In this document: positions 31,064-60,418 of the stretch, one piece after another
Numbering within the stretch: the stretch's first letter is position 1
Layout of the letters: every line of letters starts with the position of its first letter
DNA from: Enterococcus faecium
Lineage (GTDB): Bacteria > Bacillota > Bacilli > Lactobacillales > Enterococcaceae
Assembly: GCF_029023785.1 (NCBI RefSeq)
Contig: NZ_CP118955.1
Coordinates: 804,501-868,500, forward strand
Length of the DNA stretch: 64,000 nt
Direction: 5' to 3'
Notes under the pieces: generated by a model
What the model saw: only the letters and a program-made list of their open reading frames with translations
Told to the model about the DNA's origin: nothing
Databases searched by the model: none
Program-made: the position numbers and the translations under genes

Positions 31064-31166
31064 TCTGGAAAATATGGGTTAAGCAAATTCATTGCAAGTT
31101 ATAGATCAGCTTTTTTACTACCTATCTTTAATACTTGAGGCAAAGCGCCTCAAAAACAACCTGATC
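31064..31166 (-). repeat. Possible degenerate copy of the terminator-associated repeat
   Basis: Read on the minus strand it starts AGGTTGTTTTT, contains CAAGTATTAA like the left arm of subfamily E, and ends near CTTAACCCATATTTTCC. The arms no longer pair well. It directly follows the clear copy at 31169-31281. Confidence 0.35.
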
Positions 31167-31168
31167 GA

Positions 31169-31281
31169 CGGTGCTCAAAAGTCAATTTCTTGGTATTAAG
31201 TCAAATTTATGCAAAAATGTGGAAAGCCATTTTCACAAAATTTTCCTTAATACTCAAAACTCAGCGACCTTTTCACAACCT
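31169..31281 (-). repeat. Terminator-associated palindromic repeat, subfamily E, directly after acyP
   Basis: On the minus strand it begins at the acyP stop (TAAGGTTGTGA) and ends GAGCACCG. The left-arm segments GTATTAAG and AGTTTT face CTTAATAC and GAAATT on the right. It has the same orientation as acyP. Confidence 0.8.
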
Positions 31282-31556
31282 TATCCCACCACATCAAATT
31301 TCTTTCGTTCCTCAATCATCGGATCTTCTTGGACATCCACATACTGCACTCGTCCACTTGGGCTCGGAGACTTCTTGACTTCTTCGATAAATTTTTGGAT
31401 GATGTCGTCATTTCCGATTGCTTCGATTGTGACTGAGCCGTCGTCTTCGTTTTTTACCGTTCCGGTCACGCCTAACTGATCAGCAACCATCTTGGTCATA
31501 TAGCGAAATCCCACGCCCTGGACACGTCCTTGGACATTCATTTTAACTTTGCGCAT
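31281..31556 (-). CDS. acyP: Acylphosphatase
   Basis: Small enzyme of 91 residues hydrolysing acyl phosphates. The signature is GRVQGVGFRYMT near the N-terminus, with the catalytic Arg in GFR and the later GTVKNEDDGSVTI block. The ATG at 31556 has AAAGG eight bases upstream; an in-frame GTG at 31565 is too close to it. A repeat element starts exactly at its stop codon. Divergent from the rRNA methylase gene. Confidence 0.93.
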   Translation of the reverse strand: MRKVKMNVQGRVQGVGFRYMTKMVADQLGVTGTVKNEDDGSVTIEAIGNDDIIQKFIEEVKKSPSPSGRVQYVDVQEDPMIEERKKFDVVG

Positions 31557-33081: not shown

Positions 33082-33195
33082 GAGGTTGTGACAGAAGTGG
33101 TCAGCTTCAAGAAATAAGAAGGAATTTACGAAAATTGCTTCTCAAATTTTTGTGAAGTTTCGGCTTATTACCGCAGATGCCAGCTTTTGAACACC
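33082..33195 (+). repeat. Terminator-associated repeat, chimera of subfamilies A (left) and B (right)
   Basis: The left half (CAGAAGTGGTCAGCTTC, GAAATAAG) is subfamily A; the right half (CTTATTACCGCAGATGC, AGCTTTT) is subfamily B. The outer helices therefore no longer pair. It begins GAGGTTGTGAC and ends GAACACC. It lies 27 bases after the HD gene stop. Confidence 0.88.
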
Positions 33196-33210
33196 ATTCA
33201 TTCGAAACAA

Positions 33211-33247
33211 GGGACTTTGACACGACTTTTGTCACAGTCCTTTTTTC
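33211..33247 (+). terminator. Terminator closing repeat copy I
   Basis: GGACTTTGAC and GTCACAGTCC pair with one mismatch, followed by TTTTTT. The same terminator, with the same ATTCGAAACAAGGG lead-in, closes the array at 54 kb. Confidence 0.8.
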
Positions 33248-34143: not shown

Positions 34144-34153
34144 TTAATGGAAG

Positions 34154-34253
34154 TGAATAGGTGATGGTGTTCGCCTTTAAATGCTAACGAAAGATAGCTA
34201 ATGACGCCTACTAAAGTCTGGGGACAGCCCCTTTCTTTAGTAGGCGTTTTTTT
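34154..34253 (+). promoter_or_regulatory. Fluoride riboswitch (crcB motif) with terminator
   Basis: The aptamer hallmarks are GGTGATGGTGTTCGCC (34160-34175) and GCTAATGACGCCTAC (34197-34211). The terminator arms ACGCCTACTAAAG (34204-34216) and CTTTAGTAGGCGT (34235-34247) are followed by T8. The GCCTAC end of the aptamer is also the 5' arm of the terminator, so ligand binding would block termination and switch the downstream antiporter on. Confidence 0.93.
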
Positions 34254-34271: not shown

Positions 34272-35540
34272 ATGGAAAAACAATTACCGAGTCCAGTACG
34301 CATTTTAGTGTACATGCTGAAGTGGCTGGTGATCACAGCGATTCTCGGTATATTCATGGGGAGCTTATCTGCTTTTTTCTTAAATAGCTTGACAGTTGTG
34401 ACAGATATCCGACTATCACATCCTTGGCTCCTTTATCTACTACCAGTTAGTGGTGCGCTTTTTGCTTATCTCTATGCGTATCACGGCGGTCTTTCTAGTC
34501 GTGGAAACAACTTAGTGATCGATCAAGGAAATGGTGGAGAAGAAAAAATCCCGTTGCGACTTATTCCACTTACACTGTTTGGAACCATAACTACCCATTT
34601 ATTTGGGGGATCTGTTGGCCGTGAAGGAACAGCAGTCCAAATGGGGGGAGCGTTAGCAGATAATATATCACGTTTGTTCCGATTGGATAAATCAGAACGG
34701 GAAATCTTGATTATCAGTGGAATCAGTGCGGGTTTTAGTTCTGTATTTGGCACACCTTTAGCTGGAACATTATTTGGATTAGAAGTGTTGGCAATCGGGA
34801 AAGTCCGAACAGAAGCGATCTTCCCTAGCTTCTTTGCTGCACTGTTTGCAAATTTCATGACAGAAAGCTATGGTGTTTCTCATCTACATTACCAAATGGG
34901 TGTGATTCCTGAATGGAGTATGTTGCTGTTCTTCAAAGTTTTTGTTGCTGGGATTGCTTTTGGTTTGATTGGTTGGGTATTCAGCCGTTCGATCGTCTTT
35001 TTAAAAGCGCGATATGCACAATGGATTCCTCATCCTGTTTGGCGAAATACGATAGGTGGAGCTGTAGTTGTGGCAGCAGCATTGATTTTGCAAACACAAC
35101 GTTATCTCGGTTTGAGTCTTCCGTTACTTCAAGAATCATTTAATGGACAGACACATGTCTATGATTTTATTGGGAAGTTATTCTTCACAGTTTTGTCTTT
35201 AGGCGCGGGATATCAAGGGGGAGAAGTGACACCATTGTTTGAAATTGGTGCAACGCTTGGTGCAGCACTAGCGCCTTTGCTCCATGTTTCTGTTCCTTTT
35301 CTCGCAGGATTGGGCTTTATCGGAGTATTTTCTGGTGCGACAAATACACCGATTGCCTGCTTTGTGATGGGGATCGAATTGTTCGGTTCACAAGCGGCAG
35401 TATACTTCTTTATGATCTGCTTGATCAGCTTTATGTGTTCAGGCAACAGCGGTATTTATTCTGCTCAGCAAGTAGCGGTCAAAAAAGGGATACTCTTTTT
35501 GCCAATAGTTAAGAGAATGAAAGAAAAAAACAAGGTGTGA
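34272..35540 (+). CDS. clcF: CLC-F type fluoride/proton antiporter
   Basis: CLC-family membrane protein of 422 residues. The selectivity motif is GGSVGREGTAVQMG, with GREGT as in the fluoride-exporting CLC-F branch instead of GKEGP. The GSGIP motif of chloride CLCs is replaced near residue 77 (SSRGNNL). The fluoride riboswitch directly upstream makes the fluoride assignment strong. It exports cytoplasmic fluoride in exchange for protons. The stop codon lies inside the 5' arm of the terminator. Confidence 0.92.
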   Translation: MEKQLPSPVRILVYMLKWLVITAILGIFMGSLSAFFLNSLTVVTDIRLSHPWLLYLLPVSGALFAYLYAYHGGLSSRGNNLVIDQGNGGEEKIPLRLIPLTLFGTITTHLFGGSVGREGTAVQMGGALADNISRLFRLDKSEREILIISGISAGFSSVFGTPLAGTLFGLEVLAIGKVRTEAIFPSFFAALFANFMTESYGVSHLHYQMGVIPEWSMLLFFKVFVAGIAFGLIGWVFSRSIVFLKARYAQWIPHPVWRNTIGGAVVVAAALILQTQRYLGLSLPLLQESFNGQTHVYDFIGKLFFTVLSLGAGYQGGEVTPLFEIGATLGAALAPLLHVSVPFLAGLGFIGVFSGATNTPIACFVMGIELFGSQAAVYFFMICLISFMCSGNSGIYSAQQVAVKKGILFLPIVKRMKEKNKV

Positions 35541-38662: not shown

Positions 38663-39781
38663 ATGGCAAAAAAGGATAAAGAATTATTGTCACAATTGAC
38701 TTCAGAAGGCGCTAAAGGACCATTCGTCACGATCATGCTGAATACGCATGTCGCCCATCAAGATGTGGAAAAAGATCAGATCAAATTCAAAAATTTTGCG
38801 AAAGAAGCAAAGAAACGTTTTGAGAAAAAATATTCCGAACATGACTGGTCCCCGTTCCAAGAAAAAATTGAAAATTTGTTAGGAGATCCTTCGTTTTGGC
38901 GTAGTGCAACTACGAGTGTAGCGGTCATTATAACTGCTGACCAAACCTATATCCATCGTTTGAGTATCCCGGTAGACGATCAATACTATGTAAGTGATCT
39001 TCCTTATTTACTGGCTATTATCAAAAATGGGCAGTTCAACTATTCTTATTATTTATTGGGATTGAACCGCGACTCCATGAAATTGTATGAAGTCAGCAAC
39101 AAACAAGTAAAAGAAGTATCTCTACCAGAAGGGGCACCGGTTGATGTCGTTACTGCATTGGGATCTGAACTGACAGGTGGCGGTTTGAACTTCTCTTCTA
39201 ATGGAGGAGGCGGAGCCCGAGATGGAGTAACTTTCCATGGCGTAAATCCAAAAGATGAAGAAGTAGAGATCGATTGGGTCAACTATTACCAAGCAGTTGA
39301 TACGTACTTGAAGGATTCTTTCGAAAATCCAGAACAATGGCCGATTTATTTATTCGCTCTACCAGAAAATCAGACGATGTTCAAAAAAATTGCTAAAAAT
39401 CCCTATTATTGTGCAGACGTTGCGATTTCTGCTTCTCCTGCGCAGCTATCCTTTAGAGATATCGAAGAAGGGGCGAAGAAGCTGTCAAGTGAACTCGCAG
39501 CTCAAGAATCAAAAGAATACAATAAACTCTTAGATAAGAAATTCATCGATCAGTTAGTTGATATCGTTCCAGCTGCGAAAGAAGGAAAAGTGTCGCATCT
39601 ATTTATCGCTACGTCAAACTTAGCTGATGGTTTCGGTGAAGATCCTGAAACAGAATATGATCGGCGTCAAGTGTTGAATGCATTAGCAGATGATGTGATC
39701 ATTAATGGCGGGAAAGTGTTTATTTTGGATCAAAAAGATGCGCCAGATGAAAAGAGTCTGACAGCGATTCTTCGTTATTAA
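38663..39781 (+). CDS. baeRF-like protein (bacterial eRF1-related)
   Basis: Soluble protein of 372 residues that resembles the bacterial archaeo-eukaryotic release-factor-like families. The N-terminal region is KGPFVTIMLNTHVAHQDVEK, the middle contains LLGLNRDSMKLYEV, and the C-terminal block is KEGKVSHLFIATSNLADGFG. These families are proposed to act on ribosomes or to counter ribosome-targeting factors; no reaction is established. Strong AGGAGGGG ribosome site and monocistronic context. It is followed three bases later by a repeat array. Confidence 0.7.
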   Translation: MAKKDKELLSQLTSEGAKGPFVTIMLNTHVAHQDVEKDQIKFKNFAKEAKKRFEKKYSEHDWSPFQEKIENLLGDPSFWRSATTSVAVIITADQTYIHRLSIPVDDQYYVSDLPYLLAIIKNGQFNYSYYLLGLNRDSMKLYEVSNKQVKEVSLPEGAPVDVVTALGSELTGGGLNFSSNGGGGARDGVTFHGVNPKDEEVEIDWVNYYQAVDTYLKDSFENPEQWPIYLFALPENQTMFKKIAKNPYYCADVAISASPAQLSFRDIEEGAKKLSSELAAQESKEYNKLLDKKFIDQLVDIVPAAKEGKVSHLFIATSNLADGFGEDPETEYDRRQVLNALADDVIINGGKVFILDQKDAPDEKSLTAILRY

Positions 39782-39784
39782 AAG

Positions 39785-39896
39785 AGGTTGTGAAATCAGT
39801 GTTTTGACCTGAGTATTAGAGAAACAAACGGAAAAATAGTTTCACATATTTTGCCGTTTGTTGAGCTAATACCGAAGGTCAGCTGATTAAACACCG
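39785..39896 (+). repeat. Terminator-associated repeat, subfamily C (array II, unit 1)
   Basis: Begins GAGGTTGTGA three bases after the baeRF-like stop and ends AACACCG. Pairing arms: AATCAG/CTGATT, TGACCT/AGGTCA, GTATTAG/CTAATAC, and the inner AACAAACGG/CCGTTTGTT. Confidence 0.92.
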
Positions 39897-39903
39897 TGTA
39901 TGA

Positions 39904-40016
39904 GAGGTTGTGAAAAAGCTGTTCTGCATCAAGTAATAAGAACAGCAAGCAAAAATAGCTCTTCATATTTTTTGTTTGGTGGGCTTATTACCGCAGATGC
40001 AAGCTTTTGAACACCG
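39904..40016 (+). repeat. Terminator-associated repeat, subfamily B (array II, unit 2)
   Basis: Arms: AAAAGCT/AGCTTTT, TGCATC/GATGCA, GTAATAAG/CTTATTAC. Same head GAGGTTGTGA and tail GAACACCG as the neighbours. Confidence 0.92.
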
Positions 40017-40025
40017 TTTAAGGAA

Positions 40026-40140
40026 GAGGTTGTGACAGAAGTGGTCAGCTTCAAGAAATAAGAAGAGATTGACAAAAATTATTTCTCAAATTTTTGTGAA
40101 ATTTCGGCTTATTTCCGAAGAAGCTACTTCTGGAACACCG
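40026..40140 (+). repeat. Terminator-associated repeat, subfamily A (array II, unit 3)
   Basis: Arms: CAGAAGT/ACTTCTG, AGCTTC/GAAGCT, GAAATAAG/CTTATTTC. Followed by a TTTA linker and the terminator. Confidence 0.92.
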
Positions 40141-40143
40141 TTT

Positions 40144-40180
40144 AAAAAAGAGGTTGTGACGTGGTCACGACCTCTTTTTG
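40144..40180 (+). terminator. Terminator closing repeat array II
   Basis: AAAAAAGAGGTTGTGAC and GTCACGACCTCTTTTT. Its 5' arm is the same GAGGTTGTGAC that heads every repeat unit. Confidence 0.9.
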
Positions 40181-40283
40181 ACGATTATGATACAAAAAAC
40201 ATCATTTATGAACAAAATGTGAATAACGGGCGTTCTTGAGATATGATTTTAATTGGGAAAAACTTATCGATAAGGAGGTCTTT

Positions 40284-40604
40284 ATGAAAAAAAGACTGTT
40301 ATGGTGTTTGCTGTTTCTATCCCTAAGTTTAACAAGTCAGCCAGTTTTTGCTGAAGAAACACAGCGGTCTCCTATTACAGGCACACGTCTGTACAAAAAT
40401 GTTTATGTACAGACAACAGATCTTGATTCTGCGATTCCTGAAACAGAAGAACGGTCTTTGCAGCCAAGATTTGGTTACTTTTGGTACTGTCCGACCTGTG
40501 ATTATGAAAGTTGCTGGCATTTCTTACATTCTACAGCTGCAGCTTTTGCTTTTACTCATACTCAGAAATATGATGGACATCATCCTGTTATTTATGAGGT
40601 ATAG
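40284..40604 (+). CDS. Small secreted protein of unknown function
   Basis: Protein of 106 residues from the ATG at 40284, eight bases after AAGGAGG. A clear signal peptide (MKKRLLWCLLFLSLSLTS, cleavage likely after VFA) leaves a mature part of about 83 residues. This has three Cys in WYCPTCDYESCWHF and a His-rich end (THTQKYDGHHP). I recognise no family. It forms a pair with the 54-residue membrane peptide two bases downstream. A TATGAT box near 40240 could be its -10. Confidence 0.72.
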   Translation: MKKRLLWCLLFLSLSLTSQPVFAEETQRSPITGTRLYKNVYVQTTDLDSAIPETEERSLQPRFGYFWYCPTCDYESCWHFLHSTAAAFAFTHTQKYDGHHPVIYEV

Positions 40605-40771: not shown

Positions 40772-40929
40772 TTTTTTTAGTTTAAAAAAGAACATCAGAG
40801 CAAAAAAACACCAACTGAACAATATGTCGTTTATTTTAAAAAAAGTTCGGTTTTTCGCTTTATGTAATCGCTGAGAAAACTTTTTTTAATAAAAAAAGTC
40901 GAAAAACTCTAGCTTTTTTGTAAACGGTA

Positions 40930-40938
40930 TGATATACT
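40930..40938 (+). promoter_or_regulatory. Extended -10 promoter of the cold-shock gene
   Basis: TGATATACT is an extended -10; the -35 is weak. The predicted start near 40945 leaves a 5' untranslated region of about 110 bases, the length typical of cold-shock mRNAs. Confidence 0.55.
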
Positions 40939-41055
40939 AGAGGAGTAGTTTTTGTTCGGTAATCTGTGGTAGCTTGTTTCAAATAAACATCTTCCAGATA
41001 TACACCATTCAAGTAATTGCAAAATATGTGTTGATACACAAGGAGGATTTTTATT

Positions 41056-41256
41056 ATGGAAACAGGTACAGTAAAATGGTTTAACTCAGAAAAAGGATTT
41101 GGATTCATCACTGCAGAAAACGGAAACGATGTATTCGTTCATTTCTCAGCTATCCAAGGCGACGGATTCAAAACTTTAGAAGAAGGCCAAGCAGTAACTT
41201 TCGATGTTGAAGAAGGCCAACGCGGACCTCAAGCAACAAACGTTACTAAAGCTTAA
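41056..41256 (+). CDS. csp: Cold-shock protein, CspA family
   Basis: RNA/DNA-binding OB-fold protein of 66 residues. RNP1 is KGFGFIT and RNP2 is VFVHFSA. It starts [18 protein letters not shown], the typical opening. An AAGGAGGA ribosome site and a long untranslated leader precede it. It acts as an RNA chaperone. Monocistronic, ended by a strong terminator. Confidence 0.97.
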
Positions 41257-41276
41257 TTAACCTATACTAAAAAATA

Positions 41277-41310
41277 AACGCCCAGACATTTGCGTGTCTG
41301 GGCGTTTTTG
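41277..41310 (+). terminator. Terminator of csp
   Basis: AACGCCCAGACA (41277-41288) with TGTCTGGGCGTT (41295-41306) and a T run. Confidence 0.92.
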
Positions 41311-47315: not shown

Positions 47316-47429
47316 GAGGTGATGAAAAAGCTGTTTAGTTTCGAGTATTAAGAAAAATTTTGTGGAAATGGCTTTCCACATTTTTGCATAAATTTGGCTT
47401 AATACCGAGAAACTGGCTTTTGAACACCG
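47316..47429 (+). repeat. Terminator-associated repeat, subfamily E (array III, unit 1)
   Basis: Starts at the base after the asnS stop. Arms: AAAAGC/GCTTTT, AGTTTC/GAAACT, GTATTAAG/CTTAATAC, and an inner GTGGAAA/TTTCCAC hairpin. Confidence 0.92.
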
Positions 47430-47438
47430 TTTAAGGAA

Positions 47439-47552
47439 GAGGTTGTGAAATCAGTGCCTTGACCTGAGTATTAGAGAAACAAAACGGAAAAATAGCTTCT
47501 CATATTTTACCGTTTTTTTAGCTAATATCGAGGGTCAGCTGATTGAACACCG
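47439..47552 (+). repeat. Terminator-associated repeat, subfamily C (array III, unit 2)
   Basis: Arms AATCAG/CTGATT and TGACCT/GGGTCA as in the other C units. Head GAGGTTGTGA, tail GAACACCG. Confidence 0.92.
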
Positions 47553-47562
47553 TTTATATCAA

Positions 47563-47676
47563 GAGGTTGTGCGCCTGCCGTTCAGCTCCGAGTCACAAGG
47601 AGTAATTTCAAAAAACAGTTTTTCATGTTTGATGACTATTGTGACTTGTGACCGAGGAGTTGGCCGGAGAGCAACG
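47563..47676 (+). repeat. Terminator-associated repeat, subfamily D (array III, unit 3)
   Basis: Key arm GTCACAAG/CTTGTGAC, with AGCTCC/GGAGTT. The tail is altered to GAGAGCAACG. Confidence 0.88.
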
Positions 47677-47683
47677 TTTATTT

Positions 47684-47721
47684 AAAAAAAAGAACTGCGA
47701 ACTCTCGCAGTTCTTTTTTTA
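47684..47721 (+). terminator. Terminator closing repeat array III
   Basis: AGAACTGCGA (47691-47700) and TCGCAGTTCT (47706-47715), flanked by A7 and T7. Confidence 0.9.
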
Positions 47722-54171: not shown

Positions 54172-54287
54172 GAGGTTGTGACAGAAGTGGTCAGCTTCAA
54201 GAAATAAGAAGGAATTTACGAAAATTGCTTCTCAAATTTTTGTGAAGTTTCGGCTTGTTTTTCGAAGAAGCTACTTCTGGAACACCG
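54172..54287 (+). repeat. Terminator-associated repeat, subfamily A (array IV, unit 1)
   Basis: Arms CAGAAGT/ACTTCTG and AGCTTC/GAAGCT are preserved; the inner helix partner is changed to CTTGTTTTTC. Confidence 0.92.
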
Positions 54288-54294
54288 TGAATCA

Positions 54295-54409
54295 GAGGTT
54301 GTGAAAAAGCTGTCCTGCATCAAGTAATAAGAACAGCCAAACAAAAATAGCCCCTCATATTTTTCGTTTGGCTGGGCTTATTACCGCAGATGCAAGCTTT
54401 GGAACACCG
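54295..54409 (+). repeat. Terminator-associated repeat, subfamily B (array IV, unit 2)
   Basis: Arms AAAAGCT/AGCTTT, TGCATC/GATGCA, GTAATAAG/CTTATTAC, plus a perfect inner CAGCCAAAC/GTTTGGCTG stem. Confidence 0.92.
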
Positions 54410-54418
54410 TTTAAGAAA

Positions 54419-54532
54419 GAGGTAGTGAGCCTGCCGTTTAACTCCGAGTCACAAGGAGCAATTTCAAAAAACAACTTCTCATGTTTGTTGACTATTGTGA
54501 CTTGTGACCGAGGTGTTGGCAGGAGAACACCG
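54419..54532 (+). repeat. Terminator-associated repeat, subfamily D (array IV, unit 3)
   Basis: Arms CCTGCC/GGCAGG, AACTCC/GGTGTT and GTCACAAG/CTTGTGAC. The head is GAGGTAGTGA. Confidence 0.92.
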
Positions 54533-54541
54533 TTTAAGGAA

Positions 54542-54654
54542 GAGGTTGTAAAATCAGCGATTTGACCTGAGTATTAGAGAAACAAACGGAAAAATAGCTC
54601 CTCATATTTTGCCGCTTTTTGAGCTAATGCTGAAGGTCAGCTGATTGAACACCA
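54542..54654 (+). repeat. Terminator-associated repeat, subfamily C (array IV, unit 4)
   Basis: Arms AATCAG/CTGATT, TGACCT/AGGTCA and GTATTAG/CTAATGC. Head GAGGTTGTAA, tail GAACACCA, then ATTCGAAACAAGGG as at 33 kb. Confidence 0.92.
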
Positions 54655-54662
54655 TTTATTCG

Positions 54663-54709
54663 AAACAAGGGACTTTGACACGACTTTTGTCACAGTCCCT
54701 TGTTTTTTT
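54663..54709 (+). terminator. Terminator closing repeat array IV
   Basis: AACAAGGGACTTTGACA and TGTCACAGTCCCTTGTT pair with one mismatch, followed by T7. Almost identical to the terminator at 33211-33247. Confidence 0.88.
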
Positions 54710-54765: not shown

Positions 54766-55305
54766 ATGAAGATCATCGTGATTGGACAAAGTGGGTCGGG
54801 AAAATCGACCCTCGCAAGGAAGATCAAAGAAATCACCGACTTTCCGCTACTGCCGCTAGACCTTTTATGGCATACAACAGACTACAGTATTCAGGCAAAA
54901 AAGTGGTTTTTGCAAGAACAGCAATTGTTTATGGTATCTAATCCGTCATGGATCGTTGAAGGAAATTATACTTCTACATTAGAGGAAAGGATTAAAGAAG
55001 CAGATAAGATCATTTGGCTTAAAGTGCCGCGTTATCTCGCCATCTACCGAGTAGTTTGGCGTTCTCTAAAAAGAAAGATAAACAAAAAATCTCGGCCAGA
55101 TATGCCTGAATCATTTTCGGAGAAACTAAACAGGGAATACTTAGAATTTTTATCTTTTATCTGGCATTTTGAAGAAAACAATGAACCGAAAATACAGCAG
55201 CTGATCCAAGTAGCTAATGCAAGAAATAAACTGATCATCCTTAAAACAAGACGAGAGAAACAAGAATTTTTAACTAAATTGAAAATAGAGAGCAAAAATA
55301 ATTGA
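54766..55305 (+). CDS. P-loop nucleotide kinase-like protein (topology-modulation/AAA family)
   Basis: Protein of 179 residues with Walker A GQSGSGKSTLA at the N-terminus and an adenylate-kinase-like fold; WIVEGNYTSTLEERIKEADK and IIWLKVPRYLAIYRVVWRSL are typical of proteins often named FlaR or DNA topology modulation protein. True activity is not established; a small-molecule kinase is more likely. Its stop (TGA 55303-55305) lies inside the -35 box of the copY promoter. Confidence 0.85.
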   Translation: MKIIVIGQSGSGKSTLARKIKEITDFPLLPLDLLWHTTDYSIQAKKWFLQEQQLFMVSNPSWIVEGNYTSTLEERIKEADKIIWLKVPRYLAIYRVVWRSLKRKINKKSRPDMPESFSEKLNREYLEFLSFIWHFEENNEPKIQQLIQVANARNKLIILKTRREKQEFLTKLKIESKNN

Positions 55306-58246: not shown

Positions 58247-60418
58247 ATGAATGGGAACGATATGGAGAAAAAACATGAGCATAAAAAAGAAGTAGTAAAC
58301 AAAGAAAGTACAGAATCTCATGAAAAACAGATGGAGATGAAACATGACCATAGTCAGATGGATCATTCCATGCACATGGGACATAACCATGGAGATATAG
58401 CAAACAGCAAACAAATGGACCATTCGATGCACATGGATCACGAACACGGCGGCATGGATCATTCCATGCACATGGGGAATTTCAAACAAAAATTTTGGCT
58501 ATCGCTTATCCTAGCTATCCCAATCATTCTTTTTTCACCAATGATGGGAATGGAATTTCCATTTCAAGTAACGTTTCCTGGTTCTGATTGGCTCGTATTG
58601 ATCTTAGCAACTATACTATTTATCTATGGCGGTCAGCCATTTTTAAGTGGAGCTAAGATGGAATTGAAACAAAAAAGTCCTGCTATGATGACACTGATCG
58701 CGATGGGGATTACAGTTGCATATATTTATAGTGTCTATTCGTTTATCGCAAATCTGCTCAATCCACATACACACGTCATGGATTTCTTCTGGGAATTGGC
58801 TACTTTGATCGTTATTATGCTACTAGGTCACTGGATTGAAATGAATGCTGTGTCGAATGCCAGCAATGCTTTACAAAAACTAGCAGAATTACTGCCAGAA
58901 TCAGTGAAACGCTTGACGAAAGATGGAAAAGAAGAGACAGTTTCATTGAAAGAAGTAAACGAAGGTGATCGTTTGATCGTCCGGTCTGGTGATAAAATGC
59001 CAACAGATGGTGTAATCTTGAAAGGTGAAACAATTGTTGACGAATCAGCTGTGACTGGCGAATCAAGAGGAATCAAAAAACAAGCCAATGACAAAGTGAT
59101 TGGCGGTTCTATCAATGGGGATGGAACGATCGAAATCGAAGTAACTGGAACTGGTGAAAATGGTTATCTAGCGAAGGTTATGGAAATGGTGCGAAAAGCA
59201 CAAGGAGAAAAATCCAAGCTAGAGTCATTATCTGACAAAGTGGCAAAATGGCTGTTTTATGTCGCATTAATTGTGGGTATCCTGGCATTCATCGCCTGGT
59301 TGTTCTTGACAGATCTTCCTAATGCATTAGAACGTATGGTAACAGTCTTTATCATCGCCTGTCCTCATGCTCTAGGTTTAGCTATCCCATTAGTTGTTGC
59401 TCGTTCCACATCAATAGCAGCTAAAAACGGATTACTTTTGAAAAACCGCAATGCACTGGAGCAAGCCAATGATCTAGATGTGATCATGCTGGACAAAACA
59501 GGAACACTAACAGAAGGAAAATTTACTGTAACGGGTGTCGAAGTACTTGATGATGCGTTCAATAAAAATGAAATCCTTCAATATCTAGGAGCCTTGGAAG
59601 CGAATGCCAATCATCCATTGGCTGTTGGCATTATGAATTATTTGAAAGAACATGAAATCAAGCCTTATCAAGCTGAAAACCTAAAAAATCTTTCAGGAGT
59701 CGGGCTAGAGGCAACAGTCAAAAAACAACAAGTGAAAATAGTTAATGAAAAAGAAGTTGAGCGTCTCGGATTAAACGTAGAACAAGCATTATTGAAACCT
59801 TACCAAGAACAAGGAAATACCATCAGCTTCCTGATTTTAGAAAATCATCTAGCTGCAATCGTTGCTTTAGGTGACGTAGTAAAAACAGAAGCAAAAGAAT
59901 TTATCCGAACATTGAAAGAAAGAAAAATCACTCCTGTCATGCTTACTGGTGACAATAAAAACGCTGCCCAAGCAGTAGCAGATTATTTAGGGATCGAAGA
60001 ATATTATGGCGGTTTATTACCAGATGATAAAGAAGCTGTTGTCCAGAAATACCTTGACCAAGGGAAAAAAGTAATCATGGTGGGTGATGGGATCAATGAT
60101 GCGCCAAGTTTAGCCCGTGCTTCAATCGGGATGGCAATCGGTGCAGGGACAGATATCGCAATCGATTCTGCGGATGTCGTATTGACAAACAGCGATCCAA
60201 AAGATATTTTGCATTTTCTTGATCTAGCCAAGCAAACGCGAAAGAAAATGATCCAGAACCTCTGGTGGGGGGCAGGTTACAATATTCTTGCAATTCCGCT
60301 AGCAGCCGGAATTCTTGCGCCAATTGGTATCATATTAAGTCCAGCAGTTGGTGCTGTCTTGATGTCGTTAAGTACGGTAGTTGTAGCTCTAAATGCTTTG
60401 ACATTGAAAATCAGATAA
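58247..60418 (+). CDS. copB: CopB copper/silver-exporting P1B-ATPase
   Basis: Exporter of 723 residues. Instead of a CxxC domain the first 80 residues are His/Met rich, with three near-identical repeats (DHSMHMGHNHG, DHSMHMDHEHG, DHSMHMGNF). The membrane motif is CPH (IIACPHALGLAIP), the mark of the CopB class. DKTGTLTEGK is the phosphorylation site and [20 protein letters not shown] the hinge. It exports Cu(I) and Ag(I). GGAG ribosome site. Last gene of copYZAB. Confidence 0.95.
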   Translation: MNGNDMEKKHEHKKEVVNKESTESHEKQMEMKHDHSQMDHSMHMGHNHGDIANSKQMDHSMHMDHEHGGMDHSMHMGNFKQKFWLSLILAIPIILFSPMMGMEFPFQVTFPGSDWLVLILATILFIYGGQPFLSGAKMELKQKSPAMMTLIAMGITVAYIYSVYSFIANLLNPHTHVMDFFWELATLIVIMLLGHWIEMNAVSNASNALQKLAELLPESVKRLTKDGKEETVSLKEVNEGDRLIVRSGDKMPTDGVILKGETIVDESAVTGESRGIKKQANDKVIGGSINGDGTIEIEVTGTGENGYLAKVMEMVRKAQGEKSKLESLSDKVAKWLFYVALIVGILAFIAWLFLTDLPNALERMVTVFIIACPHALGLAIPLVVARSTSIAAKNGLLLKNRNALEQANDLDVIMLDKTGTLTEGKFTVTGVEVLDDAFNKNEILQYLGALEANANHPLAVGIMNYLKEHEIKPYQAENLKNLSGVGLEATVKKQQVKIVNEKEVERLGLNVEQALLKPYQEQGNTISFLILENHLAAIVALGDVVKTEAKEFIRTLKERKITPVMLTGDNKNAAQAVADYLGIEEYYGGLLPDDKEAVVQKYLDQGKKVIMVGDGINDAPSLARASIGMAIGAGTDIAIDSADVVLTNSDPKDILHFLDLAKQTRKKMIQNLWWGAGYNILAIPLAAGILAPIGIILSPAVGAVLMSLSTVVVALNALTLKIR

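Follow-up and report, generated by a model that had tools for sequence, protein, structure and literature searches.

The described repeat family closest to the elements analysed here is EFAR of the enterococci, whose members reportedly measure 42-650 bp, mostly 170 bp, comprise two stem-loops and fall into 16 sequence types. EFAR elements are also said to insert at stem-loops, removing most of the stem-loop and keeping part of the stem. The modules of BOX, another clustered repeat, differ from the units described below. EFAR is named among the MITEs in the accessible passages of PMC3733652, which cite De Gregorio et al. 2009 (FEMS Microbiol Lett 292:7-12), a paper that is titled for Enterococci and may include E. 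faecium in its coverage. In E. faecalis V583, Efa-1 is a pair of adjacent stem-loops listed with the values 163 and 65 (18), which we take as length and members, and Efa elements lie preferentially near gene 3' ends, according to the accessible passages of PMC1590033 and PMC2267715. Both features, the stem-loop pair and the position near gene 3' ends, are shared by our units, but Efa and Efa-1 come from automatic clustering in one species, and the same passages (PMC1590033, PMC2267715) do not describe subfamilies, insertion sites or covariation. Efa and Efa-1 are probably the same elements as EFAR. Other families can be set beside our units by description only: the BOX/SPRITE elements of Streptococcus pneumoniae are clustered structured intergenic elements, SPRITE being terminator-like (PMC3049150; passages of PMC10969869), and REP/BIME, ERIC and NEMIS are, like our units, short palindromic intergenic repeats, cotranscribed and with a proposed effect on mRNA stability (passages of PMC3733652), but belong to other organisms and have another architecture. 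Among the matches listed in a search of the open-licence literature, there was no paper on the repeat family in E. faecium.

The stretch of E. faecium DNA that we analysed (the window) is 64,000 nucleotides long. Its plus strand carries 11 units, each of 113-116 nt, in four blocks (33082; 39784-40140; 47316-47676; 54172-54654; Table 1), in agreement with the initial annotation, which had described 11 copies of a palindrome of about 113 bp; the interval that it singled out, 39785-40140, contains three of them. A twelfth unit, which it had overlooked, lies on the minus strand at about 31167-31282, where the covariance model described below matches 31163-31286 with 105.3 bits. With one mismatch or none, the head GAGGTTGTGA is found at 16 places in the window against 3.3 expected, and none of 100 shuffles reaches 16. 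The outer, middle and inner arms face their complementary partners just as that annotation had written them (CAGAAGT/ACTTCTG and so on), except in the unit at 33082, a chimera with a CAGAAGT-type left half and an AGCTTTT-type right half, whose outer arms are mismatched and whose folding z-score is the weakest. RNA folding z-scores of the 12 copies range from -2.5 to -8.2, and an alignment of the 11 copies has two-sided changes at 26 of 36 pairs. The tail of the unit at 47563 is degraded to GCAACG, and this unit is missing in the orthologous array of E. lactis. The four plus-strand blocks start 0-27 nt past the stop codons of genes for an HD-domain protein, a baeRF-family protein, asnS and an amino-acid permease, and all four terminate in a terminator-like hairpin with a T tract. 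The head found at 40150-40179 was considered as a fourth copy in its block and rejected, as it belongs to a perfect intrinsic terminator that shares the unit head. The possibility that the copies are random local inverted repeats was rejected on the basis of their conserved architecture and the absence of a match at E <= 1e-4, under filters that lose weak matches, in the other 248 genomes of a phylum sample.

Table 1. Repeat units and terminal hairpins in the window (positions are those of the window; z, RNA folding z-score).
Feature	Position	Strand	Remarks
Unit, subfamily D	31167..31282	-	Apparently divergent intergenic region; z -5.7
Unit, A/B chimera	33082..33196	+	27 nt past HD-domain gene stop; z -2.5
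Terminal hairpin with T tract, second hairpin of composite	33211..33246	+	
Unit, subfamily C	39784..39896	+	2 nt past baeRF-family gene stop; z -8.2
Unit, subfamily B	39904..40016	+	z -5.7
Unit, subfamily A	40026..40140	+	z -8.1
Terminal hairpin, intrinsic terminator GAGGTTGTGAC..GTCACGACCTC-T5	40150..40179	+	Head common to units
Unit, subfamily D	47316..47429	+	Abuts asnS stop codon; z -6.5
Unit, subfamily C	47439..47552	+	z -5.8
Unit, subfamily E by eye, tail degraded	47563..47676	+	z -3.7; outside the 149 parsed units
Terminal hairpin, terminator	47684..47720	+	Unrelated stem sequence
Unit, subfamily A	54172..54287	+	20 nt past amino-acid permease gene stop; z -6.4
Unit, subfamily B	54295..54409	+	z -7.3
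Unit, subfamily E	54419..54532	+	z -6.6
Unit, subfamily C	54542..54654	+	z -4.8
Terminal hairpin with T tract	54666..54709	+	92% over 65 nt to the hairpin at 33211

An Rfam scan of the window returned only cspA and fluoride matches above the gathering threshold and no repeat unit; at 39700-40300 there were 12 sub-threshold matches, all far under gathering scores (best E 0.095). The fluoride riboswitch, at 34151-34217, lies upstream of ORF 34272-35540, and the cspA thermoregulator match (40923-41310, 93.6 bits) precedes a DinG-related exonuclease/helicase gene. Elsewhere in the window, 33399-34109 matches the FusB-like EF-G-binding protein family, with scores well under the curated cut-offs for resistance names, and at 58330-58476, close to the start of ORF 58247-60418, a pair of coding repeats that look Met/His-rich by eye shares 76% identity over 56 nt-scale stretches.

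Searching the 2.67-Mb genome with a covariance model (R1) built from the 11 window copies revealed at least 150 units. From the window and from stretches, mostly of about 5 kb, around the matches, 149 full-length units were parsed by their head/tail pattern, a procedure that misses degraded copies such as the one at 47563. One parse had its arms out of register and was removed; the remaining 148 units fell into five main clusters, or subfamilies (47, 40, 22, 19 and 17 units), and a minor cluster of 3. All seven positions of the outer arms are paired in 109 of the 149 units and six of seven in another 24. Seven units, the one at 33082 among them, retain four or fewer outer pairs, which indicates that a broken fold is tolerated, at least temporarily. 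Five shortened forms of 56-73 nt resemble internal deletions; another two short matches proved not to be units.

After BLAST extension, the copies form about 76 mostly intergenic arrays of one to about seven units, totalling 22,293 bp. Relative to genes called by a crude longest-ORF heuristic, 63 of the 76 arrays lie in sense orientation to the preceding gene, with a next gene that is codirectional for 35 and convergent for 28. Eleven of the 13 antisense arrays are found behind the 3' end of the opposite gene, and two apparently between divergent genes, one of these being the minus-strand copy of the window. Sense arrays begin a median of 7 nt past the stop codon (34 of the 63 within 9 nt and 53 within 30 nt). 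A simple hairpin-plus-T rule, applied to at most 110 nt behind the array, places a terminator after 42 of the 63 sense arrays and 6 of the 13 antisense ones (48 of 76 in all, 28 being without one), compared with 58 of 189 control genes away from arrays, a set that includes operon-internal genes. The linker behind the array is TTTATTC or close to it in 39 of 76 cases, and a hairpin arm of the GTGACA or GACTGYGACA type occurs in the next 60 nt in 32. MITEs are characterised by terminal inverted repeats that a transposase recognises; here, judged by eye only, the head AAGAGGTTGTGACA looks like a rough inversion of TGTCACAGTCCCTT, which is the second hairpin's right arm.

Within the arrays there are 28 different linkers over 69 junctions, and neighbours belong to the same subfamily as often as chance predicts (14 versus 15.1); simple tandem duplication as the sole source of arrays was rejected on these grounds. 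Three stretches, each of four similar units joined by similar linkers, nevertheless resemble duplications. A fixed order of subfamilies was also rejected. Across 43 multi-unit arrays, with five subfamilies tested, A units favour the first place (11 first against 2 last, p 0.004) and E units the last (p 0.04). The position of the A type would fit an older age of this type and growth of arrays at their 3' end.

To examine the fold outside this genome, we ran R1 on 55 of 90 loci (L039-L047 and L107-L187) and obtained 72 units, 70 of them distinct, from other Lactobacillales. Standard pairs filled 95.2% of the pair cells in the 70 units, compared with 72.6% after shuffling and 40-54% when partners were slid, and two-sided changes were found at 34 of 36 pairs, with 523 cells affected against a shuffled mean of 135. 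The covariation score was 0.608, against 0.193 for shuffled and 0.06-0.12 for slid partners; the alignment was fitted to the structure and leans towards it, but the slid controls are nonetheless far lower. Even the outermost helix covaries between genera, reading GGU-bulge-GUGA/UCAC-ACC, GGU-bulge-GGGA/UCCC-GCC or GGC-bulge-GAGA/UCUC-GCC. The covariation noticed among the window copies thus persists when more copies are aligned to a covariance model, and the data strongly support the view that a predicted RNA hairpin has been retained in evolution even where the sequence of its arms has changed completely.

The initial annotation had argued that the fold, and not the sequence, is what is maintained. 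The first half of that statement stands; the second is too strong, as unpaired residues are conserved as well. A 4-nt bulge separates the outer from the middle helix; its first residue is G in 67 of the 70 units, and the same position is G in 144 of 148 units of this genome. Within the middle helix, one side of the internal loop reads RA in 63 of 70 units and the opposite side has the form YR(N)A in 63 of 70, and the apical octaloop fits (G/A)YNYYYCA in 51 of 70. It could be that these motifs bind a protein or other RNAs and that the units are regulatory RNAs, such as 3'-UTR sRNAs or sponges, but we consider this improbable, because conservation of unpaired columns exceeds that of paired columns only slightly (1.01 versus 0.86 bits, one-sided p 0.07; some columns scored as unpaired do pair in single copies) and because the copies adjoin unrelated genes. 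Transcripts of the units would have been dropped from the E. faecium sRNA study, which, according to the accessible part of PMC5593968, removed candidates found at least ten times elsewhere in the genome.

We next considered selection within the five subfamilies of this genome by counting transitions at subfamily-consensus Watson-Crick pairs that leave G-T or A-C on the head-to-tail strand, excluding units with more than 25 changes from their own subfamily consensus. The two classes should be about equally frequent if the head-to-tail strand is not selected. Counted as distinct events, pair-damaging transitions left 72 G-T and 35 A-C (p 4e-4), whereas matching transitions at unpaired control sites numbered 33 and 50 (Fisher p 2e-4 against paired sites). 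Singletons alone gave 41 versus 23 (p 0.03), and events found only in E. lactis gave 18 versus 8, which is in the same direction and not significant alone (p 0.08). Sense copies had 63 versus 32 and antisense copies 23 versus 4, with inherited variants shared between the two sets; antisense singletons had 8 versus 3. Within the subfamilies, the prevalence of G-U over A-C suggests that folding of the head-to-tail strand is selected. Since antisense copies show the same bias, the head-to-tail strand seems to be the one that folds irrespective of a copy's orientation, which suggests that selection acts while the element propagates, or before it inserts, and not only in place. As to whether the fold is selected or needed for mobility, two options that the initial annotation had placed side by side, the bias in antisense copies therefore leans towards selection during propagation, with hairpin-templated correction as a possible alternative.

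Long palindromes are known targets of hairpin-templated correction, and the complementarity of the arms might be a product of mutation, with correction or template switching copying one arm from the other and so compensating in a single step. Such a process predicts an excess of two-sided changes that keep the pair, as selection does, and among distinct two-sided changes within subfamilies the Watson-Crick pair was kept in 18 and lost in 7, although several of the 18 co-occur in the same copies and are not independent. Templated correction does not predict the strand-asymmetric excess of G-T at paired sites, given the opposite tendency at unpaired sites, nor does it predict conserved unpaired residues such as the bulge G. 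We therefore regard it as quite unlikely to be the origin of the complementarity.

To see how the arrays differ between related genomes, we compared them with a second genome, apparently that of E. lactis CCM 8412. Length differences at 18 orthologous loci were at most 3 nt in 4, 12 nt in 1 and more than 100 nt in 13, and 9 of these 13 amounted to 114-134 nt, or about one unit. Units stand at the same place in E. lactis at 17 of the 18 loci, with one locus empty there, an occupancy that is overstated since 8 of the 18 were matched to E. lactis loci chosen for holding the repeat. In five allele pairs, one genome has the element and the other a plain stem-loop. The element is present in this genome and the stem-loop in E. 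lactis at 2455704, at 2404264 and at the end of the 2515357 array, and E. lactis is the filled side opposite positions 8.7 kb and 2373.9 kb of this genome, the latter with a remnant only (short form, C2:27.8k). All five stem-loop alleles fold well, at -21.3 to -28.3 kcal/mol (z -3.2 to -9.0). Retained stem parts are clear at two of the five sites: one keeps TTGCCCTCTTTTT, the other AGCAAGG/CCTTGCT. The locus at 2404264 has preserved the right arm of the former terminator, and 63 nt of the E. lactis flank before that arm are missing here; at the 8.7 kb pair the outer stem is retained on both sides. The retained stem parts suggest that insertion rather than loss gave rise to the five pairs, and some of the allele differences could be deletions instead. 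At 2515357 an E. faecalis-type composite occupies the place of the array's terminal hairpin in E. lactis, which suggests that the last hairpin of an array can itself take up an element and so lengthen the array.

These pairs come from two sets of displayed loci. The first comprised five loci, two of them empty/filled pairs and three with unit-number or internal differences; for the second, 22 indel loci were listed and eight displayed, namely three empty/filled pairs, one duplicate pair, two unit-number differences and two that were uninterpretable. Three further loci empty on one side were inspected and none was added to the five: one has an insertion that resembles an IS and contains no units, and another has no alignment and shows no unit here. 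On the E. lactis side of the locus at 55227, the same gene is followed by a terminator-like hairpin without any unit; the right flank is unaligned, and this locus was left uncounted. No target-site duplication was noticed in the five displayed pairs, and neither a transposase nor a transposition event came to notice. The reverse transcriptase domain RVT_1 (PF00078) is absent from both this genome and the E. lactis genome, and over 21 genomes it shows no association with the element, which is present in 6 of 13 genomes with RVT_1 and 5 of 8 without; spread driven by a group II intron or reverse transcriptase is unsupported for these reasons.

The repeat occurs throughout the genus and beyond it. 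Counting this genome, R1 matched 15 of 15 genomes of the genus (36 to at least 150 matches per genome), 81 of 105 of the family and 70 of 295 of the order; a wider model, R2, matched 79 of 295. In a phylum sample of 249 genomes, the other 248 had no match at E <= 1e-4 under stricter filters that lose weak matches, and E. coli genomes had no BLAST match to the repeat. One genome of another family contains 126 matches, several of them in runs with a similar spacing of about 123 nt. Matches were also found in 71 plasmid records, 60 from Enterococcus and 6 from Lactiplantibacillus among them. When 18 copies were compared with the A type, 12 from the same genus, other genera, another family and plasmids were 83-97% identical and 6 were 69-78% identical. 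An E. faecalis record has 10 matching places, and the one that we read is a homologous unit, 73% identical to the A type, together with a second hairpin.

Several database records call for separate comment. The E. faecalis copy that we read (L184, 3001-3118) lies antisense between two codirectional genes. In NZ_CP143580.1, a 747-kb E. faecalis 'plasmid', ordinary-looking chromosomal genes flank the element, and the record may be part of a chromosome. An array query matches 222 'Listeria phage' records (LM 4-11-1 and LM 4-14-1, e.g. OR846940.1), the top-ranked at 93% over 99% of the query; these records and Enterococcus phage Efs 1-1-1 resemble enterococcal contigs filed under phage names. CP069367.1, CP069368.1 and CP069369.1, named as Klebsiella pneumoniae plasmids, contain units up to 94% identical to the repeats of this genome, possibly through contamination or misassembly.

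The high identity to the A type of 12 of the 18 compared copies, across genera, another family and plasmids, is more suggestive of spreading than of a role for individual genes. It weighs against the idea that the arrays are chiefly host-serving 3' ends, that is, terminators or mRNA stabilisers comparable to REP/BIME that are kept for the adjoining genes, with mobility being old or minor. The close placement past stop codons, the orientation bias and the terminal hairpins are what such a role would lead one to expect, as is the shared position at 17 of 18 loci in E. lactis, biased upward as that figure is. The number of units nevertheless varies at most orthologous loci, the element is also present on plasmids and antisense copies show the same fold bias, and we therefore judge a chiefly host-serving role somewhat unlikely.

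The features that can be compared agree with those of EFAR. Like EFAR, the units are intergenic palindromic repeats present in many copies, nearly all of the 76 arrays lying between genes, and in the single-unit form two stem-loops lie side by side in a composite of about 165-170 bp (33082-33246 in the window). This arrangement of a single unit, a linker and a second hairpin is also found in E. lactis, in E. faecalis, on an L. plantarum plasmid and in other records. Element size varies through the assembly of several sequence types, here five main subfamilies and a minor one, and the empty sites are stem-loops in all five pairs, with part of the stem clearly kept in two. A homologue exists in E. 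faecalis, and the likeness as a whole is one of architecture and behaviour. The present data differ in coming mostly from the E. faecium/E. lactis clade, in the order-wide distribution, in tandem arrays of up to about seven units and in demonstrating covariation, a strand-asymmetric mismatch bias and conserved unpaired motifs. On the basis of this agreement, the repeats are very probably of the EFAR type and not a new kind.

Our preferred explanation, to which we assign a probability of roughly 0.77, is that the units belong to an EFAR-type non-autonomous mobile repeat that lands in stem-loops, is selected for its head-to-tail fold and forms hairpins in 3' UTRs. The full element would consist of one or more hairpin units of 113-116 nt, followed in many copies by a short TTTATTCGGAAA-like linker and a terminator-like hairpin. 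It would land in stem-loops, mostly transcription terminators just past stop codons, replace most of the stem-loop and bring a new terminator with it. Arrays would gain and lose whole units in register, probably through recombination between near-identical unit ends, and may take a new element into their own terminal hairpin, as one allele pair suggests. The covariation and the G-U bias argue for selection on the head-to-tail fold, the folded molecule presumably being RNA rather than single-stranded DNA. Judging from position and orientation, most copies probably end up as 3'-UTR hairpins in transcripts of the gene before them; there they would bring about termination and protect or process the 3' end.

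A more far-reaching proposal, which we consider unlikely, is that the family is an order-wide mobile structured RNA, the head-to-tail RNA (or single-stranded DNA) itself being recognised for copying into terminator hairpins. Recognition would rely on the octaloop, on the internal loop (RA/CGAA) and on the 4-nt bulge with its leading G, so that the helices could change freely. Selection during propagation would account for the same G-U bias in antisense copies, and each element would supply the next landing hairpin, so that arrays would grow by self-targeting. Under the preferred EFAR-type reading as well, several results are new as far as we could search: how deeply the fold covaries, the asymmetry between strands, the conservation of unpaired motifs, the order-wide range and the array-growth allele.

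The repeats in the window fall under Rfam thresholds, and the E. faecium sRNA survey, in the accessible part of PMC5593968, filtered out repeated candidates. The allele pairs lead to a testable claim, namely that a mobile element can swap one gene terminator for another. The order-wide covariation, together with the conserved unpaired residues, defines a precise RNA target with which to find the factor that moves or binds the element. The repeats open the presumed 3' UTR of roughly sixty genes of this genome (63 sense arrays) and may therefore set the ends and the stability of their transcripts.
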